IMG/VR virus record: IMGVR_UViG_3300023237_000053
Span: 1 to 30,090 of that record
Source of the DNA: a virus
Length of the DNA: 30,090 nucleotides
Reading direction: 5' to 3' (one strand)
Shown here: piece after piece, positions 1 to 30,056 of the stretch
How positions within the stretch are numbered: position 1 is the stretch's first letter
Layout: each line of letters starts with the position of its first letter
Notes under the pieces: model-generated
Databases searched by the model: none
Told to the model about the DNA's origin: nothing
Seen by the model: the letters and a program-made list of their open reading frames with translations, nothing else
Made by a program: the position numbers and the translations under genes

Positions 1-57
1 CCTAATTTTTCCCTATGTCAATAAAATAGTAATGCCTTTCAAAAAAATGGATTCAGA

Positions 58-2403: not shown

Positions 2404-2479
2404 TCAATATTGCATGACAATCAACTAAATATGTAAGTAATTTACGGATTTTTAGCTATTTGTTGTCGTTATTTGGTGC

Positions 2480-3691
2480 ATGACGGCAAGAGAACTGATC
2501 AATAAAGCAGCTACTTTATTAGGTATAGGTAGCATTAATACAAGTCCAGATGGTGCTATAGCATTAGCGGCTGTCTATAGCTGTATAAAAAGCATTAGTG
2601 AGACGGTAGGCATGCTTCCCCTCAATCATTATTTAGCTACTGATAAAGGTAGAGTTTTAATAATGAACGCAGTTACCAAGAAAGTATCTGTCAGGCCTAA
2701 TAACTACACTACCGCCAGTGATTTTTATCAAGCTATCATAGCCAATGTTTTACTTTACGGAAACGGGTATGCAATAATTTACAGAGACTCGGACGGTGAG
2801 AAAGTACGCTCTATGCAGGTGGTACCATCTTACTATGTAGACCCTAAATTTGCCGATGGTAATATTACCTATGATGTAACCATTCCAATTAGTGATTCCC
2901 AGCAAGTTGTAAGAAAAATTCCCCAAATGGATATGATCCATTTAAAGGGTGTTGGCTTTGATAATATTAAAGGTAAAAGCCCTGTTGAGTATGCTGCCGA
3001 AGCGTTTGGATTTGGTTTAAGCGCACAGAAATATGGCGCAGAGTTCTTTAAGAATGGCGCTCATTTAAAGGGGTTTATTGAAATGCCGTCTGGCGTTACG
3101 GTTGAAGGTAAAACTAGAGAAGAAAAAAAATCTACCATTGAAAGAATTAAGGATGCCATTTTAAGTGGACTAAAAGGCGAAAGTAGCGCTGGTGGGATTG
3201 GAGTGCTTGAAAATGGCATGAAGTTTCAGGCTATGAGCTTGCCTAATGATCAGGCACAGTTTTTAGAAAGCAGAAAATTTAGCCGTGAAGAAATTGCAGC
3301 TATGTTTCGGATTCCCGCATATATGGTTGGGGAAATGGCGAACGCTATTAAATCTAATATTGAGCAGCAGTCCATTGAGTTTATAAAATATGCGGTTATG
3401 CCCTGGGTGATTAAACTTGAACAAGAGCTTGAGTATAAGATTTTAACTATTGAAGAAGAATACTTCAAGTTTGATGTAAATAGCTACATGAGAGGTACGG
3501 CTTTAGAGCGTGCACAATACTTAAAAGAGCTTAGATATGCAGGCATCATTAGCAAGCAGGAAGCCCGGGTATATGAAGATTTACCCATTGAGGGTGAGGG
3601 CGATTTTATGAGGTCTAAAAATGAATGGGGCAAAGAAGAATATGATCTGGAAATTGAAAAACGCATAAAAGAATTGAAAGGAGCAGCCTAA
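2480..3691 (+). CDS. Portal protein, HK97 family
   Basis: This 403-residue protein would form the dodecameric portal ring at the capsid vertex. The N-terminal region with ALAAVYSCIKSISETVGMLPL and the later segment PAYMVGEMANAIKSNIEQQS are hallmarks of HK97-type portal proteins. It lies between terminase and the maturation protease. The start at 2480 has no obvious Shine-Dalgarno sequence, but it gives a typical short N-terminus before the conserved AVYSC segment. The stop codon overlaps the next start in TAATG, with GAAAGGAG upstream acting as that gene's ribosome binding site. Confidence 0.93.
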   Translation: MTARELINKAATLLGIGSINTSPDGAIALAAVYSCIKSISETVGMLPLNHYLATDKGRVLIMNAVTKKVSVRPNNYTTASDFYQAIIANVLLYGNGYAIIYRDSDGEKVRSMQVVPSYYVDPKFADGNITYDVTIPISDSQQVVRKIPQMDMIHLKGVGFDNIKGKSPVEYAAEAFGFGLSAQKYGAEFFKNGAHLKGFIEMPSGVTVEGKTREEKKSTIERIKDAILSGLKGESSAGGIGVLENGMKFQAMSLPNDQAQFLESRKFSREEIAAMFRIPAYMVGEMANAIKSNIEQQSIEFIKYAVMPWVIKLEQELEYKILTIEEEYFKFDVNSYMRGTALERAQYLKELRYAGIISKQEARVYEDLPIEGEGDFMRSKNEWGKEEYDLEIEKRIKELKGAA

Positions 3692-4437
3692 TGAAAAATA
3701 GCAGCTTAATAAAGAATAGCAAACTGATCTTTAATATTGAAAAATTGGAGACTACAGCCATTATTAATATCAATGGCTTTATCGGCGATGAGTATGATGA
3801 TAATGATGCTAAAACTTTTGCAAGGGCTTTGCAGGAATTAAAAGGCTTGGATTTAACGATTCGAATTAATAGCCCTGGTGGGATTGTTACAGATGGTTTT
3901 CAGATGCACGATTTATTGGCCATGCATGATGGTAAGGTTACTACAGAAGTATACGGAGGTACAGCGAGTGCCGCCACAATTATTAGCCAAGTTGGCATCC
4001 GCATGATGAGTACCAATGCATTAATGCTAGTGCACCATGCATGGGGTTGTTTTTGCGGTAATGTCAATGATATGCGTGAGAATATTGAAACCCTTGCCAA
4101 ATTTGACGAGCAGATTTTAAGCATTTATACAAAACGTGGAGCTGATAAGGAGGTGATCACTAATCTAATGGCCGCTAATAACGGCAATGGAAAATGGATA
4201 AATGCAGACGAAGCCTTAACAGCTGGCCTTATTGATGGAACTTTTGAGCCGACTGAAGCAAGATCAGAAATTGATGCAAAGTTAATTAAGAATTTAGGCT
4301 TACCTGAGATACCTGTGAAAGCAGAAGTCCCAGAGAAGCCCGTAAAAAAAGAAGAATCTACAGATGTGGATGCAGAAGCGCAAAATTCTGAGCGCAGACG
4401 CAGACAAATTCAAATAAAAACAAAAAAGGAAAAATAA
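3691..4437 (+). CDS. Head maturation protease, ClpP-like (S14)
   Basis: This 248-residue serine protease would cut the capsid precursor and scaffold during head maturation. The fold is shown by INSPGG near residues 59-64, the nucleophile motif GGTASAA with Ser93, and VHHAWG with His115. The segment NADEALTAGLID near 171-182 matches the end of the ClpP core. The residue aligning with the ClpP catalytic Asp appears to be in an Asn/Gly-rich stretch (NNGNGK), so the third triad member is uncertain. The tail after residue 205 is charged and ends in a basic run. The gene overlaps its neighbours by one base at each end, and an AAAAAGGAAAA site near its end serves the capsid gene. Confidence 0.9.
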   Translation: MKNSSLIKNSKLIFNIEKLETTAIININGFIGDEYDDNDAKTFARALQELKGLDLTIRINSPGGIVTDGFQMHDLLAMHDGKVTTEVYGGTASAATIISQVGIRMMSTNALMLVHHAWGCFCGNVNDMRENIETLAKFDEQILSIYTKRGADKEVITNLMAANNGNGKWINADEALTAGLIDGTFEPTEARSEIDAKLIKNLGLPEIPVKAEVPEKPVKKEESTDVDAEAQNSERRRRQIQIKTKKEK

Positions 4438-5666
4438 TGGATCACCAAAAAGATATCCAAATCTTAAAAAAAGAGCGCTCAGATGTTTTATCTCATCTTG
4501 ACGCGAATTACAAAACGCTAGAAGACGAAGTGTATAACACTAAAATGCAAAGAGTTGAGGCGATTGATGCGCAAATTCTGAAAGCAGAAACGATTGAAAA
4601 GCACCAGAGTAAAAATATGGTCAATCCAATGGCGCAAACTACTGACGGTCGTAAATCGCTTGAATCATTTGATTTCTCCCGATTTTTGAGAAACGCAGTA
4701 AATAAGAATGCCCAAGAAGGTGTAGAAGCAGAGGTTATTACTGAGCAGAAAGCCTTTATGAAAAATGCAGGTTTAGAAGCCTCTGGCATGTCCCTTCCAT
4801 TTGAAGTCTTTAACGCACACACCGCTGGCGCTGCAAACAATGGCGCTGAATTGGTTGAAACCATTAAGACAGGCAAGTTTATTGATGCTTTGCAGCCATA
4901 TAGCGTACTTACGCCACTTGGTGCTAATATTTTAACTGGTTTAAGTGGCAATCTTGAAATTGGTGCCATAACCAACCCAGTTAATCCTGGAGTTAAAACA
5001 GAAACCGCTGATGCTGATGATTATACCGCAACTATTGTGAGTAGATCATTAAACCCTACAAGAGGAGCCGTTGAGACTACTTTTTCTCAGACATTATTGG
5101 CTAATACCTCTTACAATGTACAGCAGATTTTAAGCCGCCATTTGCTATCAGGCGTAACACGCCGCGCTGAATCTCATGCAATGGCAGAAGTAATTGCGAG
5201 CGCTGGTACTACTGTGGCTATAGGCACCAATGGGGGTGCTTTGACTTACGCAAAATCGGTGGAATTATTGAATTCATTGAGCGCAGCCAATAGCTCTGGT
5301 TTAAACAACGCCTTTGTTACTAATTCAAAAGTAAGAAGTGCGGGGATGCAAATTGCGTTAGATACTGGGTCAGGTAGATTCCTTTGGGAGCATACTACGC
5401 CAAATCTATTTCTAGGCAACCGTGCCCTAGTAACGAATTATGCGCCAGCAACCCTATCAAAAGGATCTGCTGACGGGACGCTTTCTGCATTAGTTTATGG
5501 GGACTTTAGCAGCCTTACCGTAGGTTTCTGGGGCGGTTTAAATATCGTGCTAGATGAAATCACTTTAGCTACTACTGGTCAAATTCGGTTGATTGTGAAT
5601 TTCTTCCATGATTCAGTTGTCGAAGTTCCTGAGAATTTTGGAGTTATCAAGGATATTATCGCCTAA
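4437..5666 (+). CDS. Major capsid protein, HK97 fold
   Basis: This 409-residue protein would build the capsid shell. The first 60 or so residues are charged and coiled-coil-like (delta/scaffold domain), and the likely mature protein starts around residue 90-110, where the protease would cut. Later parts contain NAFVTNSKVRSAGMQIALDT, a motif typical of HK97-fold capsid proteins, and the C-terminal domain with the IRLIVNFFHDSVVEVPE segment. The order portal, S14 protease, capsid supports the call. The length is close to the unprocessed HK97 capsid protein (385 residues). Confidence 0.93.
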   Translation: MDHQKDIQILKKERSDVLSHLDANYKTLEDEVYNTKMQRVEAIDAQILKAETIEKHQSKNMVNPMAQTTDGRKSLESFDFSRFLRNAVNKNAQEGVEAEVITEQKAFMKNAGLEASGMSLPFEVFNAHTAGAANNGAELVETIKTGKFIDALQPYSVLTPLGANILTGLSGNLEIGAITNPVNPGVKTETADADDYTATIVSRSLNPTRGAVETTFSQTLLANTSYNVQQILSRHLLSGVTRRAESHAMAEVIASAGTTVAIGTNGGALTYAKSVELLNSLSAANSSGLNNAFVTNSKVRSAGMQIALDTGSGRFLWEHTTPNLFLGNRALVTNYAPATLSKGSADGTLSALVYGDFSSLTVGFWGGLNIVLDEITLATTGQIRLIVNFFHDSVVEVPENFGVIKDIIA

Positions 5667-5682
5667 TTAAGCGATTCATTGG

Positions 5683-5717
5683 TCAAGGGCTGGGCAGTTT
5701 ATCTGCTTGGCCTTTGA
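5683..5717 (+). terminator. Stem-loop after the capsid gene
   Basis: A 15-bp hairpin lies 16 bp after the capsid stop codon: arms 5683-5697 and 5703-5717 with a UUUAU loop. Every position pairs, four of them as G-U wobbles in the rightward RNA. The 3' side is AUUUAA, not a run of U, so it is a weak terminator at best. It may instead attenuate transcription or protect the abundant capsid mRNA. Confidence 0.6.
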
Positions 5718-5735
5718 ATTTAACAAGGTAAAAAA

Positions 5736-5945
5736 ATGACAAAGATATTTGTACTAAAGCCACATGAAAAGTGGTCCTACAATGCTGGCGATGTGGGTTT
5801 AGTCCCAGATGAAGCAGCGCAAACAATGGTAAAAATCGGCTATTGGAAAAAGGTTGAAGATGAGCAGAAGCAAACTACAGATAACGACACCTCCAAGCGG
5901 AAACGTGGTAACTCTCGAGCAGGTAAAATCCCATCTAAGGATTGA
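5736..5945 (+). CDS. Small protein after capsid, unknown
   Basis: This 69-residue protein starts after an AACAAGGTAAA ribosome binding site. The N-terminal half (KIFVLKPHEKWSYNAGDVGLVPDEAAQTMVKIGYWKKVE) looks like a small folded domain. The C-terminal third is polar and basic and overlaps the next gene by 86 bp in another frame. Small proteins at this position in HK97-like phages often decorate or complete the head, but no family is recognised here. The overlap could mean that the tail of this protein is not well constrained. Confidence 0.65.
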   Translation: MTKIFVLKPHEKWSYNAGDVGLVPDEAAQTMVKIGYWKKVEDEQKQTTDNDTSKRKRGNSRAGKIPSKD

Positions 5946-6426
5946 TGGGTATGATCAAGATACCTACTTATCTACGCTAATTATTTCGGCAGTAAAACTA
6001 ACCGAAAGGGCTACTGGTCGGGCTTTATTACGCACCAGTTTTAGCATTAGTGTAGACACGTTTAGGGATATTGAATTACCAAAGCCGCCTTTTGTCGCTA
6101 TTAGTAGTATCACTTATTTAGATGATGCTAGCCAGAGCCAAACTCTAGCTACCACAACTTACGATATAGATGATGCTGAAGAGCCTTGTTTGATTGTATT
6201 TGAAAAAGATTTACCGCAATTAGCGGATACACGCCTTCCAATTACGATTAATTACAGCGCAGGCTACGCGGATGCGGACGCTATTCCAGAGCCGATTAAA
6301 CAATATGTACTGATGATTGTAGGGTCTTTATACGATACCTCACGCTCAGCGCACTCAGAATATGCACTACACACCACGCCAACTGCTCGCATGTTAATAG
6401 CGCCCTATATGGTTGGGGAGATTTAA
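5860..6426 (+). CDS. Head-tail connector, gp6/phiE125 gp8-like
   Basis: This 188-residue protein would form the adaptor ring under the portal. The N-terminus ITTPPSGNVVTLEQVKSHLRI and the following TYLSTLIISAVKLTERATGRAL helix are typical of gp6-like connectors. The C-terminal IKQYVLMIVGSLYDTS helix also fits. ATG 5860 is preferred over TTG 5854 because it places the conserved PP-x-x-x-VTLEQVK segment at the usual distance from the start. It overlaps the previous gene and is followed four bases later by the next head-tail protein. Confidence 0.88.
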   Translation: MSRSKLQITTPPSGNVVTLEQVKSHLRIDGYDQDTYLSTLIISAVKLTERATGRALLRTSFSISVDTFRDIELPKPPFVAISSITYLDDASQSQTLATTTYDIDDAEEPCLIVFEKDLPQLADTRLPITINYSAGYADADAIPEPIKQYVLMIVGSLYDTSRSAHSEYALHTTPTARMLIAPYMVGEI

Positions 6427-6429
6427 GCA

Positions 6430-6747
6430 ATGCGCTCGCATAAATTAGACAGACGAATAGCCCTGCTATCATCAACGTCAAGTATTAATGATTTAGGTGA
6501 ATCGGTTTTTTCTTGGTCTACAAATATGAGCGTTTGGGCGCAAGTTAAATATAGATCAGGGAGTGAAGATTTTAGCGATGGTATAGAGGTAAACACCCAA
6601 AGTGCTACTTTTATTATACGCTATCAAGCGACCCTAACTACCAAGTATAGAGTGCTTTTTGATGGCAATACATACGACATAGAAGCAATAACAGACCCAA
6701 GAAGAAAAGAATTAATGGAGTTGGAATGTACATTGATAGAAGTGTAG
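6430..6747 (+). CDS. Head-tail adaptor (SPP1 gp16-like stopper)
   Basis: This 105-residue protein is likely the head closure or stopper protein. It starts with the typical LDRRIALLS segment, continues with ESVFSWSTNMSVWAQVKY, and has the beta-rich RYQATLTTKYRVLFDGNTYDIEAI core followed by RRKELMELECTLIEV. These features match the Phage_H_T_join family. It follows the gp6-like connector directly, and its last 22 bp overlap the start of the lysozyme gene. Confidence 0.88.
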   Translation: MRSHKLDRRIALLSSTSSINDLGESVFSWSTNMSVWAQVKYRSGSEDFSDGIEVNTQSATFIIRYQATLTTKYRVLFDGNTYDIEAITDPRRKELMELECTLIEV

Positions 6748-7142
6748 ACATGTTAAAAACATTTGAGGGCTTTAGCGGTAAGCTATACCGATGCACTACA
6801 GGCGCTCAGACAATAGGCTACGGCTTTAACGTAGACGCTGGTATGAGTGAACGTGCCGCTGCTTCCCTTCTTGAGCACCAAGTAACTGAATTATATGCAG
6901 ATTTAGCCAGATTTGAGTTTTTTGATGAATTAGACGAGGTACGCCAGAGCGTGATTGTACAGATGGCTTTTCAGATGGGCAGCAGCGGCTTGCTTAAATT
7001 CAGAATGATGCTTGAGGCGATTAAGCAAAAAGACTACGCTAAAGCGTCTATTGAGATGCTTAATTCAAAGTGGGCTAATCAAACTCCAATGAGAGCCAAA
7101 AAAATGGCTGCAATGATGAAGGCTGGATTATGGGAGATTTAA
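6726..7142 (+). CDS. Endolysin, T4-type lysozyme (GH24)
   Basis: This 138-residue enzyme would cut peptidoglycan between N-acetylmuramic acid and N-acetylglucosamine at lysis. The catalytic segment is FEGFSGKLYRCTTGAQTIGYG: Glu14 matches T4 Glu11 and Thr29 matches T4 Thr26. The position of T4 Asp20 holds Cys23. Some natural GH24 enzymes also carry Cys here, and a Cys at this site is compatible with activity. The conserved tail helix with AFQMG and a final Trp region (SKWANQTPMRAKKMAAMM) is present. No signal peptide is seen, so export should depend on a holin. It overlaps both neighbours. Confidence 0.93.
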   Translation: MYIDRSVDMLKTFEGFSGKLYRCTTGAQTIGYGFNVDAGMSERAAASLLEHQVTELYADLARFEFFDELDEVRQSVIVQMAFQMGSSGLLKFRMMLEAIKQKDYAKASIEMLNSKWANQTPMRAKKMAAMMKAGLWEI

Positions 7143-7474
7143 ACGTAAAAAATGAAGGTAGCCTAATAGAATGGATAAAAAACCATTCCTACGCTATTTT
7201 TATAGCGGTAATTATCATTGCGATTGATTATGGCGTAATTACCACCCGCTTAGCTGGTGTTGAAAGTTCAGTTGAAACCAATTCCAAGTCTATAAAAGAA
7301 TTGGAAAAAAATGTAGACCAGATTGAGGACTTTCAAATAGAAATGAACGCTGTAATTATTCAGACACTCAAAGACATAAACAGTAAGCTAGAGCGATTTG
7401 AGAACAAATTTGACAAGTATGATGAAGGGATTCAAAGACTCTACCAAGATTATGACTTAAAAAAGAAAAACTAA
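7130..7474 (+). CDS. Membrane-anchored coiled-coil protein, lysis-associated
   Basis: This 114-residue protein has one membrane segment near residues 20-38 (YAIFIAVIIIAIDYGVITT) and then a long charged coiled coil to the end. It starts inside the lysozyme gene and lies before a holin-like gene, so a lysis role is likely. Its shape fits a holin of the hemolysin-XhlA sort or an inner-membrane spanin, but no outer-membrane lipoprotein partner is seen next to it. The exact function is an inference from topology and location. Confidence 0.65.
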   Translation: MGDLNVKNEGSLIEWIKNHSYAIFIAVIIIAIDYGVITTRLAGVESSVETNSKSIKELEKNVDQIEDFQIEMNAVIIQTLKDINSKLERFENKFDKYDEGIQRLYQDYDLKKKN

Positions 7475-7484
7475 GGTGATACTA

Positions 7485-7712
7485 ATGAAATTCATTAAAA
7501 AGCTTTTAAGCAAAACCCCAAAGCTGGGAAAAACAATTAGAAACGTTGGAGGTGTACTGCTTGGTGGTACAGCTGCTTCTTTTAGCTTTCCAGAAATTCC
7601 CGAGAGCTACATACAGATTTTAACCATTGTATATGCGGTGGTTTTGGTTTTTAAAGGTCAGTACAGCACCGCTGAGGATGTGATTAAGGAAGCTAAAGAA
7701 ATAGGGGAATAA
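7485..7712 (+). CDS. Holin-like small membrane protein
   Basis: This 75-residue protein has a basic N-terminus (MKFIKKLLSKTPKLGK), a weakly hydrophobic segment near 20-36 (NVGGVLLGGTAASFSF) and a stronger one near 42-57 (YIQILTIVYAVVLVF), then an acidic tail. This two-segment plan and the lysozyme just upstream suggest a class II-like holin. ATG 7485 with AAGGTG upstream is preferred over the GTG at 7476. Sequence identity to a named holin family was not recognised. Confidence 0.65.
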   Translation: MKFIKKLLSKTPKLGKTIRNVGGVLLGGTAASFSFPEIPESYIQILTIVYAVVLVFKGQYSTAEDVIKEAKEIGE

Positions 7713-7714
7713 CC

Positions 7715-8134
7715 TTGTCTGATATTACTATAAATGGAATAAAAGAAGTAGAGCAATCTATGAAAGCCTTATCGGGCTTTCCGCAGCAGCGCCAGTTAAT
7801 TCAAGCTGCCGGGCGCAGAGCTGCTAGAGTTTACATTAGCGCTGCAAAGGCCTCTATACCCAGAAAAACAGGTGAGCTTAAGCGATCTATAGGAACTAAA
7901 TCCTCAAGAACAACAAACTCTGTTATTGTGGGGCCAAGACGTGGTGGTAAATTTAAGGGCTATCATGGCCACCTTTATGAAGAAGGGTTTACCCACCGAT
8001 CAGGCGTTAAAGTGCAAGGCGCAAAGACGTTACAAAGAGCTTGGAACGCTACTAAAACCAAAGTTAGAGATGTTCAAATGCAAGTTATCGGCGAAAAGTT
8101 TAATCAATACGCTTCAAAAGCACTAAAACGATGA
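7715..8134 (+). CDS. HK97 gp10-like head-tail joining protein
   Basis: This 139-residue protein matches the gp10 family: a short N-terminal ITINGIKEVEQSMKAL, then RRAARVYISAAKASIPRKTGELKRSIGTKSSR, followed by a Gly-rich HLYEEGFTHRSG segment and a C-terminal helix. It would act at the head-tail interface or in tail completion. The start is a TTG at 7715, two bases after the holin-like stop, with GGGG upstream; no ATG lies early enough to keep the conserved N-terminus. It resumes the joining module after the lysis genes and overlaps the next gene by four bases. Confidence 0.88.
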   Translation: MSDITINGIKEVEQSMKALSGFPQQRQLIQAAGRRAARVYISAAKASIPRKTGELKRSIGTKSSRTTNSVIVGPRRGGKFKGYHGHLYEEGFTHRSGVKVQGAKTLQRAWNATKTKVRDVQMQVIGEKFNQYASKALKR

Positions 8135-8505
8135 CATCAGCGGGCAAGGTTATTTATGGGGCTTTAAACGGCAATGTGGCTGGCTTAACTAGAGTTAGCC
8201 CCAAGTTTGATGCAAACGTCAGGCCGATGCTGGTTTACTCTGCCCAATCCTTGCCTCCCACTAGAACTAAAACGGCTATTATTGCCAGAAATTACAACGT
8301 AAATCTTACAATTTTTGCAGACACCTACACGGCGTGCGAAGATTTTACCGCTTCGGTAATTGCGCTACTTGAAGTGCTTGGTGGCACAACAGTAAACGGT
8401 AACGCCGTTCGCTACTGCACCACCGCTTTTACTGGCGATATTTTTGAAGAAGAAATAGGATTTGGAACAGACATTACAATTAATCTAACCTTAAACGAAG
8501 GATAA
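8131..8505 (+). CDS. Tail terminator/completion protein (DUF3168-like)
   Basis: This 124-residue protein has the compact alpha-beta plan of tail terminator proteins: an N-terminal helix with KVIYGALNGN, a central strand region LPPTRTKTAIIARNYNVNLTIFA, a helix TYTACEDFTASVIALLEVLGG and a final ITINLTL strand. Its place between a gp10-like protein and the tail tube protein supports the DUF3168/terminator role, capping the tail at the joining end. The ATG overlaps the previous stop. Confidence 0.72.
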   Translation: MTSAGKVIYGALNGNVAGLTRVSPKFDANVRPMLVYSAQSLPPTRTKTAIIARNYNVNLTIFADTYTACEDFTASVIALLEVLGGTTVNGNAVRYCTTAFTGDIFEEEIGFGTDITINLTLNEG

Positions 8506-8508
8506 AAA

Positions 8509-8931
8509 ATGGCAGTATTACAGGGAACAGATCTCTTTGTTTCTGTAGGCGATGATCAAGTGGGCTTTGCGCAGACTTGCTCTATTGTGCTAAACACAGA
8601 AATCATAGATCAAAACACGAAGTCTAACGCAAGTAAATTTGCTTCTCGCAGAGCTGGCAGAAAAACAGGAACTATAAGCACGAATGGGCTTTATGATCCT
8701 TCCGACACAGCGCAAGCGGCGTTAATCACCGCAGCTTTTGCCGATTCAGCTCAGGTCACAGCAAGTTATGGAGTAGCGAATGGTACTACTGAATCTGCTA
8801 CAAACTCCAGATATGTTGGGACCTTTATTATTACTTCACTTGAGTTGAATTCAACAGATAATGAAGACGCTACCTTTACGGCTACGCTTGAAAGTGCTGG
8901 TGCCATAACTCGAGATAATACAGGCGCATGA
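8509..8931 (+). CDS. Major tail tube protein
   Basis: This 140-residue, Thr/Ser/Ala-rich protein is the likely tail tube subunit. It has strand patterns such as GTDLFVSVGDDQVGFAQTCSIVLNTEI, an ASRRAGRKTGTISTNGLYD turn, and a C-terminal YVGTFIITSLELNSTDNEDATFTATLESAG segment typical of TP901-1-type tail proteins. GAAGGATAAAAAATG gives a good ribosome binding site, in line with high expression. It is followed by the frameshifted chaperone pair, the standard tail order. Confidence 0.87.
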   Translation: MAVLQGTDLFVSVGDDQVGFAQTCSIVLNTEIIDQNTKSNASKFASRRAGRKTGTISTNGLYDPSDTAQAALITAAFADSAQVTASYGVANGTTESATNSRYVGTFIITSLELNSTDNEDATFTATLESAGAITRDNTGA

Positions 8932-9239
8932 TAAGGCAGATTCTAATTGAAGGTAAAAAGCGCCCCTTTGTTATGTCTATGGCCACGGTTGAATATTATT
9001 TATTTAATAGAGATGTGCCCTTAGCTGATTTAGCTAAGATTTTTAAAAACATGACCACTAAAGACTTGCCAGAGCTGATTTTGCAGGGCTTTATAGTGGG
9101 CGCTATTTTGGAGGGTAACGAATGTGATTTAACCGTTAAAGACTTGCTAAAAGCGGGTATTAAAGGGGAAATCAACCTCATCAAATTATCTGAAGAACTC
9201 AGTAGCGTTTCGGATGAGGAAAAAGATCAGGGAAAGTAG
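8928..9239 (+). CDS. Tail assembly chaperone, short form (gpG-like)
   Basis: This 103-residue protein ends at TAG 9237-9239 just after a GGGAAAG heptamer. It would be the short chaperone that coats the tape measure protein before tube assembly. It contains helices such as SMATVEYYLFNRDVPLADLAKIFKNM and has an acidic, charged end. The ATG overlaps the tail tube stop. Its place before the tape measure gene and the frameshift site make the assignment strong although the sequence itself is variable in this family. Confidence 0.87.
   Translation: MIRQILIEGKKRPFVMSMATVEYYLFNRDVPLADLAKIFKNMTTKDLPELILQGFIVGAILEGNECDLTVKDLLKAGIKGEINLIKLSEELSSVSDEEKDQGK
9230..9236 (+). promoter_or_regulatory. Programmed -1 frameshift site GGGAAAG
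   Basis: The heptamer G GGA AAG lies in the correct phase (codons GGA 9231-9233 and AAG 9234-9236), directly before the TAG stop of the short chaperone. It is the same heptamer used in lambda G/GT. A -1 slip continues as GTA GAA GGC into an open frame to 9556. A weak stem (9256-9261 with 9272-9278, one bulge) lies downstream. Confidence 0.88.
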
Positions 9240-9556
9240 AAGGCTATGAGAGTAAGCTAACTATTCAGATGGTTCAGCAAACTATGCTAGGTTTAATGGG
9301 TGTCAGTTACGTTGATTACTGCACTATGCCTGTTCGAACTGCTTTCATAGCCATGTCTGGCCATCATCTTGGTGAGAAACATAAAATGCAAATGGAATGG
9401 GCGCAAGCCCGATTTATTGCAAGTGCTATGACAGACACCAGTAGCATTAAGTTTGATTGGGAAAAAGAGGTAGCAGCTAAAAGCGCTGTATTACCGCATG
9501 AAGAATATTTAAAAAGATTTGAGCGAGTATATGGCAAGAACAAGCATACTGGGTAA
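9236..9556 (+). CDS. Tail assembly chaperone, frameshifted extension (T part of gpGT)
   Basis: This frame is read after a -1 shift at 9230-9236 and adds 106 residues (VEGYESKLTIQMVQQTMLGLMG onwards) to the 103-residue short form, giving a fusion of about 209 residues. The frame has no stop between the slip site and 9554. An internal ATG at 9269 exists but has no ribosome binding site, which favours frameshifting over independent initiation. In lambda the GT fusion links the tape measure to the tail tube protein. The 3' end overlaps the tape measure gene by 26 bp. Confidence 0.85.
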   Translation, partial: VEGYESKLTIQMVQQTMLGLMGVSYVDYCTMPVRTAFIAMSGHHLGEKHKMQMEWAQARFIASAMTDTSSIKFDWEKEVAAKSAVLPHEEYLKRFERVYGKNKHTG

Positions 9557-11345
9557 CGTAGCAGTAAAAATAGGGATGCAAAGCGCAGGCTTTAATAAAT
9601 CTCTAAATAAGTCGCTACTAAAATTAAAAAAGTTCGGGAAAAGTGCTGAGAAAATAGGTAAAACTCTTTCCATAGGCTTTACTACGCCGCTCGTTGCAGG
9701 TTTTGCAAAATCTATTATGTTGTTTGATAAGCAGGCTAAAGCCATTGCCCAGGTAGAGCAGGGATTAAAAACTACCGGTAACGCAGCTGGCTTTACGTCT
9801 AAAGAGTTGCAAAAAATGGCCAGTGGGTTGCAGGGTATTACCATCTTTGGCGATGAGGATATTTTAAAAGATGTAACCTCACAGCTCCTAACCTTTACCA
9901 ACATAAGTGGCGATGCCTTTGCACGAACCCAAAAAGCAGCATTAGACTTGGCCACCCGATTAGATGGCGATTTAAAGAGTGCATCTATTCAACTTGGTAA
10001 GGCATTAAATGATCCAGTCGCTAACTTATCTGCATTAAGTAGATCAGGTATTCAGTTCAGCGCCCAGCAAAAGGCGGTTATAAAAGATCTGGCAGACACT
10101 AATCAATTAGCTGCTGCGCAAGCCATTATATTAGATGAATTAGAAAAGCAGTATGGGGGCTCAGCCGAAGCAGCGCGCAAAGCAGGTGCCGGTGGATTGC
10201 AGGCACTAAGCAACAGCTTTGGCGATATTTTAGAACGTGTGGGTGAATCGCTGAATCCTGTACTAAATAGATTAGTAGCCTTTTTTGATGAGATTGCAGT
10301 TAAAGCCAGTAACCTTAGTGATAAACAAATACGTTTAGGTGTAGCTATTGGTATAGCTGTTGCTGCTATTGGTCCAATGATTTACGTGATAGGTCTACTA
10401 GCTACAGCTTTTGTAGCCTTAGCTACGCCTTTAGCGCTAAAAATAGCGGCTATTGTAGCCTTAGCCGTTGGTATAAACTATCTGTACCAGAATGCAGGCG
10501 CTTTGGCTGATCGGTTTGTCTACGCTTTTAACGTTGCAAAAGAAGCGGTGTTGGATATGACGGCTAGCGCTATTGACGCTCTTGCCTCCTTGGTTGGGGT
10601 ATTTGATTCAGTCACGGCTTTAGGCTTAAGAGGTATGGCTGTTGATATGCGTAGTGGTTTAGGTAATATAAAGAAAGACTTTACCGAGTTTAAAGGCTTT
10701 ACGGAAACCCTAACAGATACCATATCTGCTTTGGGTGAAGCTTTTGACAATCTTTTTACAGGCATGCAAGGGGGCTCAAATTCCTCTGGTGGTAGTGGTA
10801 GCCGCCAAAACTTTGGGGAAAACATTGGGCGCGGGTCTGTGCAAGCGGTGGGTTCTGGCCCTGTTGAAACGTTAAGTGGTATTATTGAATTAGCGCCCAT
10901 AGCCGCTGTAAAAATGCAAGAACTTACAAATATGCAGATTGCGCAGTCCCAGGCATTAGCGCAGACGTTTGATCAAATAGCCGATGCCTTCGCCCGAACA
11001 TTTGTAGACGGACTCATGGATATTAAAAATTTTGGCGATGCATTTAAAACATTGGGTAAAACTGTGGTAGCATCACTAAAGGAAATAGCTGCGCAGATGC
11101 TAAAAATGGCTATTATTAAGGGAATCGGGTCAATATTATTCCCTGGCGCTGGTACCTTATTGACAGGCTTTGATTTAGCTAGACAAGCATTTAGTGGACC
11201 AGGTAAAATGAGGGCTGGCGGTGCTGGGGTTGCTAGCGCTGCAAATAAGCAATCATTTAGCGCTAAGCTTTTTATTGATGGCCAAAACGTAAGAACTACA
11301 TACGAGATTGCTAATAGACGATTTAATAGAATTGTGGGGTCGTAA
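9531..11345 (+). CDS. Tape measure protein
   Basis: This 604-residue protein would set tail length and be ejected with DNA. The segment LDLATRLDGDLKSASIQLGKALNDPVANLSALSRSGIQFS is characteristic of the TMP_2 tape measure family. A hydrophobic region near residues 268-315 could span a membrane during ejection. A Gly/Ser linker follows near 410-425. At about 1.5 angstroms per residue the tail would be near 90 nm. ATG 9531 is preferred over TTG 9519. It is directly followed by the tail tip gene. Confidence 0.93.
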   Translation: MARTSILGNVAVKIGMQSAGFNKSLNKSLLKLKKFGKSAEKIGKTLSIGFTTPLVAGFAKSIMLFDKQAKAIAQVEQGLKTTGNAAGFTSKELQKMASGLQGITIFGDEDILKDVTSQLLTFTNISGDAFARTQKAALDLATRLDGDLKSASIQLGKALNDPVANLSALSRSGIQFSAQQKAVIKDLADTNQLAAAQAIILDELEKQYGGSAEAARKAGAGGLQALSNSFGDILERVGESLNPVLNRLVAFFDEIAVKASNLSDKQIRLGVAIGIAVAAIGPMIYVIGLLATAFVALATPLALKIAAIVALAVGINYLYQNAGALADRFVYAFNVAKEAVLDMTASAIDALASLVGVFDSVTALGLRGMAVDMRSGLGNIKKDFTEFKGFTETLTDTISALGEAFDNLFTGMQGGSNSSGGSGSRQNFGENIGRGSVQAVGSGPVETLSGIIELAPIAAVKMQELTNMQIAQSQALAQTFDQIADAFARTFVDGLMDIKNFGDAFKTLGKTVVASLKEIAAQMLKMAIIKGIGSILFPGAGTLLTGFDLARQAFSGPGKMRAGGAGVASAANKQSFSAKLFIDGQNVRTTYEIANRRFNRIVGS

Positions 11346-24572: not shown

Positions 24573-25412
24573 ATGGCTAATGATAAAAAGAGAATGATCA
24601 GCACAAAGTTTTGGAATGATACTTACACATCTGATTTAGATCCTATTGAAAAGCTGCTATTTCTGTATCTGCTAACCAACGATCAGACCAATATGTTGGG
24701 AATTTATGAGATACCACTCAGACGAATTGCATTTGATACCGGTATTGATAGAGAAATGGTTTTAAAAATACTTGAGCGGTTTAAAAGCTTCGGAAAAGCA
24801 GAATATACGGAGGGTTATGTGATTATTTACAATTTCATAAAACACCAAAAATACAATAAGCTAATGGCTATCAGTGCCTTGAAAGTTTATGAAGAGTTAC
24901 CGAAAAGTATACCCTTAGCAAAGGGTATACAAAGGGTTAGCAAAGGGTATGAGACCCTTTGGCAAGGGTTCGAGATATATAAAAAGGAAATAGAAATAGA
25001 AATAGAAAAGGAAAAGGAAAGTGAAATACAAATACAGGAAGGCGCGGCTTCGCCTGTGTGTGTGAAAGATTCTATTGATTTTGAATTGTTCATTTCTGAG
25101 TGGAATCAGGTCTATGCTACCAACATCAGACTTACGAAATCAAAAAAAACGCAGCTAATACAGCGCCTTAAGAGTTTTTCAAAAGAAGAAATATTAACCG
25201 CAATGCACAAGCGAAGACATGACCATTGGCTGAACAACGATGGCAAGAAGTTTTTAACGGATTGGGAAGCCTTATTCCGAAATGATGAAAAAATCGAAAA
25301 ATATCTAAACGCCCCTTTAAAGAATTTACAGCATGAAAGCACTAAAAGATCATATCAGACAAGTGGAGACCACATTGGTTCAATCTATCGAGACATTGCC
25401 AACGGCCATTAA
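24573..25412 (+). CDS. Replisome organizer / replication initiator (O-like)
   Basis: This 279-residue protein would bind the origin and recruit replication proteins. The N-terminal winged-helix region (residues 1-110, with STKFWNDTYTSDLDPIEKLLFLYLLTND) is typical of phage replisome organizers. A low-complexity Glu/Ile/Lys stretch (about 136-155) links it to a C-terminal helical domain (165-265) with WNQVYATNIRLTKSKKTQLIQRL. The DNA coding for residues 112-155 holds phased AAGGGT repeats and a purine-rich tract, a lambda-O-like internal origin. GAGGAA lies upstream of the ATG. Confidence 0.85.
   Translation: MANDKKRMISTKFWNDTYTSDLDPIEKLLFLYLLTNDQTNMLGIYEIPLRRIAFDTGIDREMVLKILERFKSFGKAEYTEGYVIIYNFIKHQKYNKLMAISALKVYEELPKSIPLAKGIQRVSKGYETLWQGFEIYKKEIEIEIEKEKESEIQIQEGAASPVCVKDSIDFELFISEWNQVYATNIRLTKSKKTQLIQRLKSFSKEEILTAMHKRRHDHWLNNDGKKFLTDWEALFRNDEKIEKYLNAPLKNLQHESTKRSYQTSGDHIGSIYRDIANGH
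24907..25035 (+). repeat. Candidate replication origin with AAGGGT iterons
   Basis: Six AAGGGT/ACCCTT elements lie at 24911 (reverse), 24921, 24932, 24943, 24954 (reverse) and 24964. Their spacing is 10-11 bp, about one helical turn. The first two form a perfect 10-bp inverted repeat, 24907-24916 with 24921-24930. From 24973 to 25035 a strongly purine-skewed, A-rich tract follows. Iterons then an easily melted tract within the initiator gene is the lambda plan. Confidence 0.6.
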
Positions 25413-26131: not shown

Positions 26132-26505
26132 AAACTAAAGTGGTTTACATAGCTCATCCCATTTCAGGTGATATAGCGGGTAACATTGCAAAGATTTACG
26201 CATTGGTGAGATTAATCAGTTTTAAGCGCCCAGACGTTATCCCTTTCGTGCCGTACTTGGTGTATTTGGGGGCTTTGGATGACCACGAGCCGAAGGAAAG
26301 GGCGATGGGAATGCGATTTAATGAGCATTTCATAAGCCCAAAATACATTGATGAGATCTGGGTTATGGGCTTATCTGAAGGGGTTTTTAAAGAAATTGAA
26401 CAAGCTAATCAACAGCTAATTAAAATAGTTTATTGGTGCAAGCAAATGGACTACAACGAATTTAAAAAAACAGGTTATAAACCATCTAAAATTTTTGGAC
26501 TATGA
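26128..26505 (+). CDS. DUF4406/DUF7768-like nucleotide-binding fold protein
   Basis: This 125-residue protein has a Rossmann-like plan typical of a phage family related to nucleoside deoxyribosyltransferases: VYIAHPISGDIAGNIAKIYALVRLI at the start, FVPYLVYLGALDDHEPKERAMGMRFN in the middle and IDEIWVMGLSEGVFKEIEQANQ near the end. Members may handle nucleotides or sense them, but activity is not established. It overlaps both neighbours by four bases. Confidence 0.72.
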   Translation: MKTKVVYIAHPISGDIAGNIAKIYALVRLISFKRPDVIPFVPYLVYLGALDDHEPKERAMGMRFNEHFISPKYIDEIWVMGLSEGVFKEIEQANQQLIKIVYWCKQMDYNEFKKTGYKPSKIFGL

Positions 26506-27089
26506 AAAATAATTTTTATACAACTGAAGAAATAGCGGTAATTACCGCTTTCTACAAAAATGAAGGAGCCACTTATTGCGCGGGTTTAATGCCAGGTCGT
26601 AAGCCTAGTTCTGTAAAGCAGAAGGCTCGTAAGCTGGGTTTTTACTATGAGGGCGATAAATTAGGTTGTTTTAAAGAAGGCCACACGCCAGCCAATAAGG
26701 GCGCTAAAATGCCTAATCACGTTTATGAGGCCGCTAAAGCAACGATGTTTAAAAAGGGGTTTAAGCCAGCAAATACTAAATTTGATGGGGCCATTAGCTT
26801 ACGAAAAGATAATAGCGGATATGTGTACAAATTTATACGACTAAAATGCGCAAAATGGGTTCAGCTACACCGTTATGTTTGGGAGCAGGCGAACGGCCCT
26901 ATACCGGATAAGCATATAATTAGATTTATTAATGGAAATACTTTAGATGTCCAGCTGGATAATCTTGAACTGTTGAGTATGGATAAAAATGCCATAATAA
27001 ACAGACATGCTAAGTACCCAAGATCACTTCAAGAATCAATTTACCAATTCCACAAACTTAATAGGGAAATAAATGCCAAGAAATACTAA
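26502..27089 (+). CDS. HNH-type endonuclease with degenerate metal site
   Basis: This 195-residue protein joins an N-terminal DNA-binding helix set (residues 5-48, ATYCAGLMPGRKPSSVKQKARKLGF) to an HNH_3-type core (110-160). The core has LHRYVWEQANGPIP with His123 and NGNTLDVQLDNLELL with Asn154. The second His of the usual VxHxDGN motif is replaced by Arg141-Phe142. Similar phage proteins often have this change, so activity is uncertain. It could be a homing endonuclease or have lost cleavage. Confidence 0.75.
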   Translation: MKNNFYTTEEIAVITAFYKNEGATYCAGLMPGRKPSSVKQKARKLGFYYEGDKLGCFKEGHTPANKGAKMPNHVYEAAKATMFKKGFKPANTKFDGAISLRKDNSGYVYKFIRLKCAKWVQLHRYVWEQANGPIPDKHIIRFINGNTLDVQLDNLELLSMDKNAIINRHAKYPRSLQESIYQFHKLNREINAKKY

Positions 27090-27304: not shown

Positions 27305-27487
27305 ATGAGATATAAAAAATATAGAATTGTTAGAAATCATTTTTACAATTGTTTTAAAGTTCAATGTTGGAGAATTTGGTTCCCGTTTTGGGTTGAAATA
27401 CACTTTTGTAGTGTTGAATCTTCTTTAGAAGAAGCGAAAGAAGCTCTTAAATATCATAAAAATCCTATCATTTATTATGAAGAATAA
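27305..27487 (+). CDS. Small aromatic-rich phage protein
   Basis: This 60-residue protein starts at ATG 27305, one base after the previous stop. It has a strand-rich first half (YKKYRIVRNHFYNCFKVQC, then WRIWFPFWVEIHF) and a short C-terminal helix (SSLEEAKEALKYH). Proteins of this kind, with aromatic strands then a SLEEA helix, occur in many phage early regions without known function. It overlaps the next gene (ATGA-like, 11 bp). Confidence 0.6.
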   Translation: MRYKKYRIVRNHFYNCFKVQCWRIWFPFWVEIHFCSVESSLEEAKEALKYHKNPIIYYEE

Positions 27488-27956
27488 AGAAAAAATTGAA
27501 TTGCTTGAAAAGCGTATTTTTTGTCTTGAAGTTTCATGCGATTATGCAATGAGAAAAGAAGATGAAAAGTTTAATGAAATCGTATATAAGAAACCTGAGG
27601 TAATTGAAATGCCGTTCAAATTAGATAAATATGGAGACGTAGTGTTTAAAGACAAACGAATAAATCCGGACGCTTTTTTTAATTATTTAATAGACGAAAA
27701 CATAGATCAAACGCAAATTAATCGAATTCAAATCGAAATGAAGGACGAAAGAGATTACAAAGCAATGAATAAAGATGCACAAGGCAATTCATCTTTAAGT
27801 AGTGTTAGCCCACGTATTGACTGGGTTGAGCTACGAAACAACTTCTTTAATGAATGCGCAACAGAAACAAGAGAAGAACTTGGTAAAAAAGTAAACATTG
27901 CTCCACACGATTTATTTGAATGGTTTAAACGTGAGATTTTGGAATATGTGGGCTAA
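27477..27956 (+). CDS. Unknown protein at end of early operon
   Basis: This 159-residue protein is not recognised. It begins with a coiled-coil helix (MKNKEKIELLEKRIFCLEVS) and has an acidic middle part. The C-terminal 50 residues (DWVELRNNFFNECATETREELGKKVNIAPHDLFEWFKREIL) look like a small helical domain. Its stop codon lies inside the left end of the first attC-like unit (27948-27957). It overlaps the upstream gene, so it is probably the last gene of the early operon. Confidence 0.6.
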   Translation: MKNKEKIELLEKRIFCLEVSCDYAMRKEDEKFNEIVYKKPEVIEMPFKLDKYGDVVFKDKRINPDAFFNYLIDENIDQTQINRIQIEMKDERDYKAMNKDAQGNSSLSSVSPRIDWVELRNNFFNECATETREELGKKVNIAPHDLFEWFKREILEYVG

Positions 27957-28049
27957 CGTTGAGTATATGGTTTTGTAAGCCATAGCATAAATTACAATTA
28001 AATGAATATAAACTTTGTGGGCTTATAAACTATATATAGTGTTACCCAC
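27948..28049 (+). other. attC-like unit 1
   Basis: The unit begins GTGGGCTAAC (27948-27957) and ends GTTACCCAC (28041-28049), which are inverted to each other. Inside, an imperfect stem pairs 27964-27981 with 28020-28036 with one mismatch and one bulge. Spacers of six and four bases separate the inner and outer pairs. Ends of AAC and GTT, two box pairs and bulges are the plan of integron attC sites, though the outer boxes do not match the usual RYYYAAC/GTTRRRY. Confidence 0.5.
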
Positions 28050-28065
28050 TTTTAAAATTACGATT

Positions 28066-28293
28066 ATGAAACGAGAAGTTAAATTTTACCAAACACAATT
28101 TTCGCCATTTACGGGTAAAAATTTATTGCCAAAACTCACCTTTTCTAAGAATGTACAAGGTTGGTTTTTTACTAGAAATTGGACAATTACACTATTTAGA
28201 TTTGCTTGCACAATATCAACAACTGTAACGAAAGACTTAGATGTAGATAGGAATTTGGCGCACGATCAGAATGTATCTAAGTATATGGCCTAG
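28066..28293 (+). CDS. Cassette gene 1, unknown
   Basis: This 75-residue basic protein (MKREVKFYQTQFSPFTGKNLL at the start, a WFFTRNWTITLFRF aromatic centre) is not recognised. ATG 28066 is chosen because the longer frame would begin with a TTG inside the repeat unit. The leader is A/T-rich without a Shine-Dalgarno sequence. It is a single gene lying between two attC-like units. Confidence 0.5.
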   Translation: MKREVKFYQTQFSPFTGKNLLPKLTFSKNVQGWFFTRNWTITLFRFACTISTTVTKDLDVDRNLAHDQNVSKYMA

Positions 28294-28304
28294 TAATTTT
28301 TATT

Positions 28305-28361
28305 GTGGGTAACGGTACACGGCTATGCTTAGTCCCGACTTATTAACGACAAAATATAATT
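28305..28361 (+). other. attC-like unit 2, partial
   Basis: GTGGGTAAC at 28305-28313 begins this unit, but no GTTACCCAC end is found before the next gene at 28365. Only the left half seems to be kept. Confidence 0.35.
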
Positions 28362-28364
28362 GAA

Positions 28365-28682
28365 ATGATACATATTACAGAAGAAAAATTAAAAGCAGCA
28401 ATTCAGATGGCAATACTTGACGAATGTGAAAACATGGATAAAGCAGAAGCTAAATTAGTACACGACATTAAGGCGTTAAGTATAGCCGATGTTAGCGGTA
28501 TGTTGCCCGACCAAACGAAGCGACATATTGACTTAGCATATTTAACAGGCGTATTTAATGTAGTCGGTATTGATGGTTTACAAAAAGAACTGACAAGGCT
28601 GAAAGAAATTGGTAAAAAACCACACGATATTTTCTGTGAGAGCTATTTGCGGTATAGGTTTATGGGAGCGCTTGGGCTATGA
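28365..28682 (+). CDS. Cassette gene 2, C-terminus replaced by tail-gene DNA
   Basis: This 105-residue protein is not recognised. The first 90 residues are helical and acidic (MIHITEEKLKAAIQMAILDE onwards, with a LPDQTKRHIDLAYLTGVFNVVG core). The codons for residues 92-105 (ESYLRYRFMGALGL) and the first base of the stop come from a 44-base sequence identical to part of the tail tip gene but read in another frame. So the original 3' end of this gene appears to be lost. The leader lacks a Shine-Dalgarno sequence. Confidence 0.55.
   Translation: MIHITEEKLKAAIQMAILDECENMDKAEAKLVHDIKALSIADVSGMLPDQTKRHIDLAYLTGVFNVVGIDGLQKELTRLKEIGKKPHDIFCESYLRYRFMGALGL
28637..28680 (+). repeat. 44-bp sequence, copy 2 (cassette end)
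   Basis: This exact copy of 11701-11744 lies at the 3' end of cassette gene 2, in a different frame, and runs up to where the left box of the next attC-like unit would be expected. Confidence 0.95.
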
Positions 28683-28759
28683 ATTGAAGCCCTAATACTA
28701 AAGTTCGATTCACAACAATAACCTTGACAGGGCTTTTATTTATAGCCTTTGTTACCCAC
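28680..28759 (+). other. attC-like unit 3, left end lost
   Basis: The unit ends with GTTACCCAC (28751-28759) and has an inner stem 28680-28693 with 28729-28742 (11 of 14 pairs, AAGCCCT/AGGGCTT core). The left GTGGGTAAC is absent; the 44-base tail-derived sequence lies in its place and ends in GGGCTAT, slightly like the GGGCTAAC of unit 1. Confidence 0.45.
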
Positions 28760-28788
28760 AGTACGGGTTGACAAACAAAAACTTAATT

Positions 28789-29247
28789 ATGAAATACGAT
28801 AGCAAAGCAGATACTCTACTGCACATCAAAAGAGTAAACCAATTGTTTACAGAATCAGCAAGTGAATTGATAAGACGTGCCAATGTTCACGATAATTCAA
28901 AACTTGAAAGCCCTGAAAAGGAATTGTTTGACGAGTACACACCAAAGCTAAAAGACTGTACTTACGGAAGTGATGAGTATAAAGAGTTTTTAAAGGGTTT
29001 GAAAGTAGCCCTTGACCATCATTACAAAAATAATAGCCACCACCCAGAACATTACGAAAATGGTGTAAATGGATTTGATTTATTTGACTTAATAGAAATG
29101 TTCTTCGACTGGAAGGCTGCAACAGAACGACACGTAGACGGTAATATAATGAAGTCTATTGAAATAAATAAAGGACGTTTTGAATTATCTGAACAGCTTT
29201 GCAAAATTATGAAAAATACTGCTGTTCGTTTAGGATACGATAAGTAG
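28789..29247 (+). CDS. DUF5662-like protein (cassette gene 3)
   Basis: This 152-residue protein has the pattern of DUF5662: VHDNSKL (His34, Asp35), VALDHHYKNNSHHPEHYENG (77-92, with several His) and DLIEMFFDWKAATERH. The ordered His and Asp residues suggest a metal-binding, HD-like helical fold, with unknown substrate. DUF5662 genes are common in phages and mobile DNA. ATG 28789 has no Shine-Dalgarno sequence; a TTG at 28768 lies nearer the repeat unit. It is a single gene between attC-like units. Confidence 0.72.
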   Translation: MKYDSKADTLLHIKRVNQLFTESASELIRRANVHDNSKLESPEKELFDEYTPKLKDCTYGSDEYKEFLKGLKVALDHHYKNNSHHPEHYENGVNGFDLFDLIEMFFDWKAATERHVDGNIMKSIEINKGRFELSEQLCKIMKNTAVRLGYDK

Positions 29248-29251
29248 TATT

Positions 29252-29369
29252 GTGGGTAACGACCTGTGTATGTGTAGTAAGGCTAGCACATACTTTCGGT
29301 TTAAAACTAAATTAATTAGCCTTATTACATATAAATCTTCTTTGCAGGTTTCTTTGCAAAGTTGCCAAC
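29252..29369 (+). other. attC-like unit 4
   Basis: The unit begins GTGGGTAAC (29252-29260) and ends GTTGCCAAC (29361-29369), a seven-of-nine match to GTTACCCAC. The inner stem pairs 29269-29285 with 29317-29333 at 15 of 17 positions. The right spacer is 27 bases, longer than in an ordinary attC, and contains a small CTTTGCA/TGCAAAG hairpin. Confidence 0.42.
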
Positions 29370-29381
29370 TTAACTGAAGTT

Positions 29382-29570
29382 ATGATAGAACTGAAATGTG
29401 AAAAATGCGGTGTTGACTATGAAAAGCCTGCCGACTTTAAAAAGTGGAATGACGAAAAACCAAATGTATTTTTTAAATGGAGCTTAGCATTTTGTGATAC
29501 TTGCAGACGTAAAAGAGAAATAGAAGGACTAAAGAGATTACCTGAAGTTATTAAAGCGTTGGCAAAATGA
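29382..29570 (+). CDS. Small zinc-ribbon-like protein (cassette gene 4)
   Basis: This 62-residue protein has two CxxC pairs (Cys6/Cys9 and Cys38/Cys41) about 28 residues apart, as in small zinc ribbons, and a basic C-terminal helix (RRKREIEGLKRLPEVIKAL). It may bind DNA or RNA or be a protein partner. It lacks a Shine-Dalgarno sequence, like the other cassette genes, and follows unit 4. No classical unit is seen after it; the 75-bp gap to the HNH gene holds only a GCGCA/TGCGC hairpin at 29589-29605. Confidence 0.6.
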   Translation: MIELKCEKCGVDYEKPADFKKWNDEKPNVFFKWSLAFCDTCRRKREIEGLKRLPEVIKALAK

Positions 29571-29645
29571 ACGCTAACTCATCTATAAGCGCACAAAACC
29601 TGCGCATATAATAAAAATAAAAATAACAAATTATAGGGGTGAAAG

Positions 29646-30056
29646 ATGGGATCATCAAAGGCGTTCACTAAGCAATCAGATGAAGCAAAAGAGTATAAGA
29701 AGTTCTACCAGTCTAAACAGTGGCGGAATTTTAGATTAATGATGAAGCGCTCAGCGGTGATTAGTCAGCTCAAAGAGCCACGTTTCAAATATTACGCAGC
29801 CACTAAGTATCTATATATGAATGAGCCGCTATGCGTTATATGTGTCACTCATAATCAATTTACTAAAGCAAATACACTTGATCATATAAAGCCTATCCGT
29901 TTGGGTGGTGGTAAAGTTGATCAACAAAATGTTCAATGGGTCTGTCAGAACTGTCACTACGCTAAGAGTGGCGGCGAGAAGCAGGACTACAGGCCAAAGA
30001 CAGACAAAGGGAGCTTAGAAATATGGAAAAGAGCCCTACTAGAGCAACAGGGGTAG
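29646..30056 (+). CDS. HNH endonuclease (terminase-associated)
   Basis: This 136-residue HNH nuclease carries the zinc pairs CVIC (Cys63, Cys66) and CQNCH (Cys100, Cys103), with DHIKPIRLGGG (Asp79, His80) and Asn95 between. In HK97-type phages an HNH gene lies just upstream of terminase and is needed for DNA cleavage during packaging; here it lies at the window's end, with terminase at the start, consistent with joined ends. AGGGGTGAAAG is a good ribosome binding site. The last 34 bases hold no gene. Confidence 0.92.
   Translation: MGSSKAFTKQSDEAKEYKKFYQSKQWRNFRLMMKRSAVISQLKEPRFKYYAATKYLYMNEPLCVICVTHNQFTKANTLDHIKPIRLGGGKVDQQNVQWVCQNCHYAKSGGEKQDYRPKTDKGSLEIWKRALLEQQG

Follow-up and report, generated by a model that had tools for sequence, protein, structure and literature searches.

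A probable array of mobile gene cassettes in a Bacteroidota phage, with sites related to those beside chromosomal XerA-like recombinases

The DNA analysed here (the window) comprises the 30,090 bp of a virus record with phage genes that include terminase, tyrosine-integrase and HNH genes. At 27.9-29.6 kb its small genes alternate with units that form a stem and carry AAC and GTT boxes (Table 1). The original prediction, made from the sequence alone, had read these units as those of an integron-like gene cassette cluster with left ends at 27948, 28305 and 29252. Exact GTGGGTAAC is found at 28305 and 29252, but the end at 27948, although present, is one base longer (GTGGGCTAAC). The right ends are as described, being exact GTTACCCAC at 28041 and 28751 and a near match, GTTGCCAAC, at 29361; a fifth GTTACCCAC, at 2204, is isolated and lies in the terminase region. 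Only site 1 is complete among the window sites, and sites 2-4 are damaged: site 2 is without its right half, site 4 has approximately 25 extra nt ahead of its right box, and site 3 has, as had been noted, lost its left AAC, its sibling in L032 retaining both GCTTAAC and GTTAGC. Stems were also borne out in units 1, 3 and 4, whose folding energies are modestly better than those of shuffled sequence (z -1.3 to -2.4), but not in unit 2, a 64-nt stub that shows no stable fold (z +0.3). Folding of the units is similar on both strands. Despite the modest excess in folding energy, the inner stems of the units are real. A search of the window against Rfam returned no match.

Four GTT-9-mers in 27751-29580 are each followed, 100-700 nt downstream, by an AAC-9-mer that is exactly complementary to them (27804/27949, 28041/28305, 28751/29252 and 28164/28612, the last of which is unrelated to the units). 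In 1000 dinucleotide shuffles the mean number of such pairs was 0.2, and none of the 1000 reached the observed four; the paired boxes in the window are not chance. The first of these pairs includes GTTAGCCCAC, which may be the left end of a further cassette.

The array spans 27957-29577 and its genes, with the exception of the DUF5662 gene, are without close families. The gene of cassette A encodes 75 aa and belongs to no family; that of cassette D encodes 62 aa, is Cys-rich and likewise belongs to no family. Cassettes A and C both have matching ends (GTTACCCAC/GTGGGTAAC). Cassette B has lost both of its own boxes, and the 3' end of its gene enters the stem of site 3. DUF5662 is also present in unrelated large phages, and PADLOC assigned none of the cassette proteins of the window or of the related contigs L095 and L096 to a known defence family. 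The left edge of the array lies between ~27750, where homology of the native phage gene to L196 ends, and 27957, and no relative covers it; the ORF at this edge consists of an N-terminal part that is the native phage gene and a C-terminal part that is fused to it. Bacteroidota generally lack Shine-Dalgarno sequences, and the absence of such sequences from the small genes, which the original prediction had pointed out, says little because of this.

Table 1. Features of the array and of the phage genes discussed (positions in the window)
Feature	Position	Strand	Basis or remark
Tyrosine integrase of the phage itself	19676..20824	+	remote kin of array recombinases, not IntI-like
ORF at left array edge, stop inside left box of site 1	27477..27956	+	
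GTTAGCCCAC box, complementary to GTGGGCTAAC (27948-27957)	27804..27813	+	inverted repeat; 9-mer pair
Putative recombination site 1, complete (GTGGGCTAAC, stem, GTTACCCAC)	27948..28049	+	R1 E 8.9e-6; folding
Cassette A: site 1 stem and gene 28066-28293	27957..28312	+	edges by analogy with other cassettes
Site 2, truncated: left box GTGGGTAACG and partial left arm	28305..28364	+	sequence
Cassette B gene, 105 aa, no family	28365..28682	+	
Putative recombination site 3, left AAC lost	28661..28759	+	R1 E 6.4e-4; L032 sibling
Cassette C: site 3 stem and DUF5662 gene 28789-29247	28669..29259	+	
Putative recombination site 4, imperfect, right box GTTGCCAAC	29252..29369	+	R1 (weak match 29252-29348, E 0.078); inverted repeat
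Cassette D: site 4 stem and gene 29382-29570	29260..29577	+	ends at AA of edge box
Apparent landing site (attI-like): stem TATATGCGCA/TGCGCTTATA, GATGA, GTT	29574..29611	-	exact edge of variable slot
HNH endonuclease gene, conserved right flank of slot	29646..30056	+	

A covariance model, R1, was built from 21 phage-type sites of other contigs, two of them from Bizionia, with the window sites excluded. R1 matched the window at 27949-28049 (E 9e-6), at 28661-28759 (E 6e-4) and, weakly, at 29252-29348 (E 0.08), all on the same strand and inside 1.4 kb, and gave no further match in the window at E < 1; site 2 was not matched. (A match at 27704-27812, with an E of 1.2, was set aside as it is not significant and overlaps a native phage gene.) Elsewhere R1 identified one site in L096 and approximately 100 sites in 17 chromosomal arrays. 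The family is a loose one, with a mean column identity of 39% and few exact bases common to its sites. Note that the invariance of AAC and GTT in our alignment A1 was imposed by the finder and is hence no evidence, whereas the near-invariant G that follows AAC was not so imposed. Sites of the family keep a single orientation throughout phage and chromosomal arrays. Judged by these matches, the window sites belong to one family with sites from independent phage and chromosomal arrays, which, together with the varying content and sharp AAC edge of the slot described below, upholds the proposal that they are divergent attC-type sites.

The DUF5662 gene served as a lead to the chromosomes of Bizionia and Algoriphagus, in which it adjoins a gene for a tyrosine recombinase of 369-375 aa. 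Homologues of this recombinase (< 1e-60) were found in 123 of 249 Flavobacteriaceae genomes and in 72 of 296 genomes sampled across the phylum Bacteroidota, the arrays themselves having been checked in Flavobacteriaceae only. Using a simple finder of AAC-stem-GTT units with asymmetric spacers, we counted, over 40 chromosomal loci, ~190 units that lie on the expected strand as against 22 that lie on the opposite one, compared with 0.3 units per 10 kb of shuffled sequence at a slightly different threshold. Within the closest group, all 21 flanks of at least 8 kb contained at least one unit, and 17 of the 21 contained at least three. The chromosomal units are often ~125 bp long, there are mostly single genes between them, and each array has the recombinase gene at its end, the 3' end of the gene facing the array. 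Long one-way arrays of this kind, at the 3' end of an XerA-like gene and with a palindromic attI-like site directly after its stop codon, were observed in Flavobacteriaceae loci L155-L194, L098:1-2710 and L099:1-1709. Of note, many assemblies (contig ends of G137, G221, G144, G053, G079 and others) break within ~200 nt of the 3' end of the recombinase gene, as would be expected if the repeats of an array stop assembly; chromosomal cassette arrays are probably under-represented in draft genomes.

The best family for the chromosomal array recombinases is the XerA-like family (NCBIfam NF040815), with scores of 201-242 bits against a cut-off of 220. With the integron-integrase model TIGR02249 they fall below the cut-off, and in most of them the best stretch ends at around position 180 of 315. 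Alignment with IntI4 (2A3V) places 24 residues of the array recombinases opposite ~67 residues of IntI4. The score and this gap in the alignment indicate, therefore, that the IntI-specific domain is missing from the array recombinases. This additional domain is treated as defining for integron integrases (PMC9668308). Such units do separate genes in Bacteroidota arrays, but the neighbouring enzyme is an XerA-like recombinase without the IntI insertion rather than IntI. As predicted, there is no integron integrase with the cluster: we found neither an IntI-type nor an XerA-type recombinase in the 30-kb record, and the only tyrosine recombinase of the window aligns with the array recombinase at an E of 1.4e-4.

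These observations bear on the idea that the array is an ordinary integron CALIN, in which divergent canonical attC sites were recruited by a true IntI of the host. CALINs are known from phages, including a Polaribacter phage, and IntI1 recombined attC sites of phage origin, a Polaribacter phage being the source of one of these sites (Qi et al. 2023, PMC9892861). Bacteroidota also appear in published listings of integrons (PMC8618304). The array moreover resembles integrons in its AAC/GTT boxes, in the matching ends of its cassettes and in having single genes. However, the chromosomal arrays with the same sites adjoin XerA-like recombinases without the IntI insertion. The boxes in the window, as had been pointed out, also depart from the usual consensus, GTTACCC falling outside GTTRRRY although the AAC/GTT core holds. 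In addition, none of 149 Flavobacteriaceae genomes passed the TIGR02249 cut-off, in a search in which the control genomes were equally silent. We regard recruitment by a host IntI as unlikely.

One phage-like contig, G544, has at the right edge of its array a gene for an XerA-like recombinase of its own, 266 aa in length (L040:5185-5985). The gene lies between the array and a gene predicted from its sequence to encode a DnaB-like helicase, and shares its direction with the cassette genes. This contig possibly represents a complete Xer-type integron in a phage.

To define the unit that moves, we compared the edges of shared sequence. The stretch shared by the DUF5662 cassettes in L030/L031, L032/L033 and L034/L036 opens at the junction of AAC and G ahead of the stem, closes with the AAC that follows the gene, and goes no further. 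The edges in these phage pairs define the unit, therefore, as stem, gene and next AA. Chromosomal cassettes are duplicated in several loci, some of the copies being 100% identical, and their edges often fall exactly between AAC and G (L162, L173, L180, L184 and L191); some of these duplicates have one copy adjoining the recombinase end, and other duplications in chromosomal loci have different edges. Of 135 neighbouring pairs examined, 92 show complementarity between the two ends of a cassette (at least 6 of 8 matches); between the boxes of the same site it is seen in only 12 of 185. The matching boxes of the window had been taken as halves of one site; they are instead the two ends of one cassette, and this accounts for the exactly paired boxes at 28041/28305 and 28751/29252, which are complementary over 9 nt without a mismatch. 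The end sequences GTTACCCACAGTA and TATTGTGGGTAACG of the window are also found on chromosomal cassettes, in L166 and L185.

The content of the slot was compared with that of related IMG/VR contigs. Over window positions 1-11287 the identity of L198 is 98.5%, and L095/L198 and L096 are 98.4% identical to the last 515 bp of the window; in these contigs the end of the window continues into its start. Homology stops exactly at 29576, between AAC and TCATCTATAAGCGC (that is, AAC followed by TCATC), and left of this position L095 and L096 hold other small genes parted by similar units. The last cassette is common to L095 and L096, and beyond it the two diverge. Hence the genes at this position differ among related phages, and the units are not a family-wide intergenic sequence: contigs that are ~98.5% identical have different genes and different spacers there. 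We consider that the different content of near-identical phages is the strongest single fact in favor of a cassette slot. For the near-identical phages no left flank was recovered, because searches with the HNH gene at 26502-27086 and the gene at 24573-25412 gave no relatives of the former and only distant ones of the latter. An assembly chimera was rejected on the grounds that the independent contigs L095 and L096 and the unrelated L196 agree on the edge. (A search of viral contigs for the exact-box pattern GTGGGTAAC...GTTACCCAC returned 24 stretches, none with array anatomy; this was the wrong probe because the boxes vary between cassettes.)

Two further explanations can be weighed against these edges. 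Were the units ordinary intergenic terminators or family-wide phage spacers, their similarity in the boxes would be incidental. The stems could also end transcription, and both strands fold alike; however, the cassette ends match beyond chance, the edges between AAC and G are exact, and near-identical phages differ in content at a slot whose exact edge, shared by L095, L096 and the unrelated L196, led us to reject a terminator-only reading. We consider it extremely improbable. Alternatively, the region could be a hypervariable one in which homologous or illegitimate recombination acts between short repeats and no dedicated site-specific recombinase takes part. Phage genomes are generally mosaic, different cassettes can have a stem in common (L033 and site 1 of the window), and the junction of the cassette shared by L095 and L096 lies away from AAC, all of which would fit such recombination. 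On the other hand, a mean column identity of 39% among the sites is too low for homologous recombination, many edges in both chromosomes and phages lie within 1-2 nt of the AAC/G boundary, and the orientation of the sites is uniform. It seems to us distinctly improbable that short repeats account for the array. With regard to the junction itself (L095:437 / L096:494), it falls a few nt before GTT and so off the usual edge, and L095 has a very short unit, AAC-CTTT-GTT, at this point.

Many chromosomal array recombinases are followed, directly after the stop codon, by a palindrome of ~11 bp, usually 4-5 nt, and GTT. The bottom strand of window positions 29574-29611 has this same palindrome / 4-5 nt / GTT architecture, and for this reason we take the right edge of the slot to be a landing site. 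The same edge recurs in L196/L199, whose backbone is unrelated to that of the window phage except for one small gene left of the slot: their own array ends on the right with GCTAAC followed by TCATCTATAACCGCACAAAAC. At the L196 edge it is the sequence that is conserved and not the palindrome, the right half of which has not been kept. A search of 395 Bacteroidota genomes for the pattern, allowing up to two mismatches, gave no hit, which suggests that the landing site is phage-borne rather than a chromosomal attI.

Phages and chromosomes differ in the direction of the genes. Relative to the asymmetry of the site spacers, cassette genes in chromosomes run one way by 159 to 5; in phages, with DUF5662 left out, they run the opposite way by 18 to 2, parallel to the phage genes around them. 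The DUF5662 cassette that adjoins the Bizionia recombinase has the phage orientation, as it would if it had been captured from a phage. In Polaribacter filamentus (L031/L097, L097:7908-10694) a DUF5662 cassette in phage orientation is followed by a gene for 614 aa in chromosomal orientation; this hybrid stretch is also on record as a viral contig.

Taken together, these findings make it likely, in our assessment, that the window phage, a phage of Bacteroidota, carries an array of mobile gene cassettes whose right-hand border is a phage-borne landing site and which is served in trans by an XerA-like enzyme. The comparison supports the site family, the cassette unit, its edges, the variable slot and the landing site. 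Three of its results amend the original prediction: the system is a Bacteroidota one adjoined by XerA-like recombinases, the phage genes are reversed relative to those of chromosomes, and the array extends to 29577 with the landing site beyond. In the mechanism that we propose, each cassette would comprise a stem-forming site and usually one small gene, would start at the C of its left box (between AA and CG) and end at the AA of the next, and through its complementary ends (GTTACCCAC...GTGGGTAAC) would yield a free circle with one matched, foldable site. The site would fold as a single strand, an XerA-like tyrosine recombinase would cut it at G^TT, and the cassette would be excised as a circle that such an enzyme could re-insert at the phage landing site or at a chromosomal attI. 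Because the record of the window phage contains no such recombinase, the enzyme would have to act in trans, from an array in the host chromosome or from another phage such as the one represented by L040. Cassettes would in this way move between the chromosome and the phage landing site, and the phage would sample small accessory genes that are expressed in the direction of its own operon.

Like the CALINs described in phages (PMC9892861), the window has an array without an integrase gene, AAC and GTT around a stem, and mostly one small gene per unit. It differs from them in that its sites are of a Bacteroidota family found beside XerA-like recombinases, its genes are opposite to those of chromosomal cassettes, and it has a landing site and a content that is swapped in near-identical phages. 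Polaribacter phage P12002L has units of similar form between small genes, and R1 found no match in it; the similar units of this phage (L201, 30009-30055, 38036-38089 and 39126-39244) are on the minus strand, in phage-type orientation, and lie between small genes and methyltransferase genes. The Flavobacteriaceae arrays resemble sedentary chromosomal integrons (for example those of Vibrio) in having a recombinase gene, one insertion site, a long one-way array, G^TT-type boundaries and complementary cassette ends, but differ from them in that the recombinase is without the IntI insertion and has its 3' end towards the array, and in having an insertion site built of a palindrome, then a short spacer, then GTT. 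The XerA-like family (NF040815; PDB 4a8e, 5hxy) is the best family for these recombinases. The Xer enzymes known so far act on one dif site, where they resolve dimers; the array recombinase, in contrast, adjoins many sites and, in most members, has an N-terminal extension of ~100 aa. Our literature search, outside which lay most subscription journals and preprints, found no paper on Flavobacteriaceae arrays beside an XerA-like recombinase. What is new here is the Xer-type recombinase, the reversed genes, the phage landing site and the swap between near-identical phages.

The chromosomal system behind the phage array may be more than a variant of known integrons. With less confidence than we have in the reading of the window itself, we lean towards a cassette-capture system of Bacteroidota that is run by an XerA-like recombinase without the IntI domain, and that is either a sister or an independent invention of the integron; phages would hold a pool of its cassettes with the opposite gene orientation and a landing site of their own, one of them with its own recombinase, and cassettes would pass from phage to chromosome and back. 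IntI is the defining feature of integrons and also what searches for integrons depend on. Should an Xer-type recombinase run the Bacteroidota arrays, a large reservoir of cassettes would have gone unnoticed, and it would become possible to test where IntI came from. On the phage side, accessory genes can be swapped at a fixed slot in a backbone that stays ~98.5% identical, and the exchange of cassettes between phage and host can be tested directly in the laboratory.
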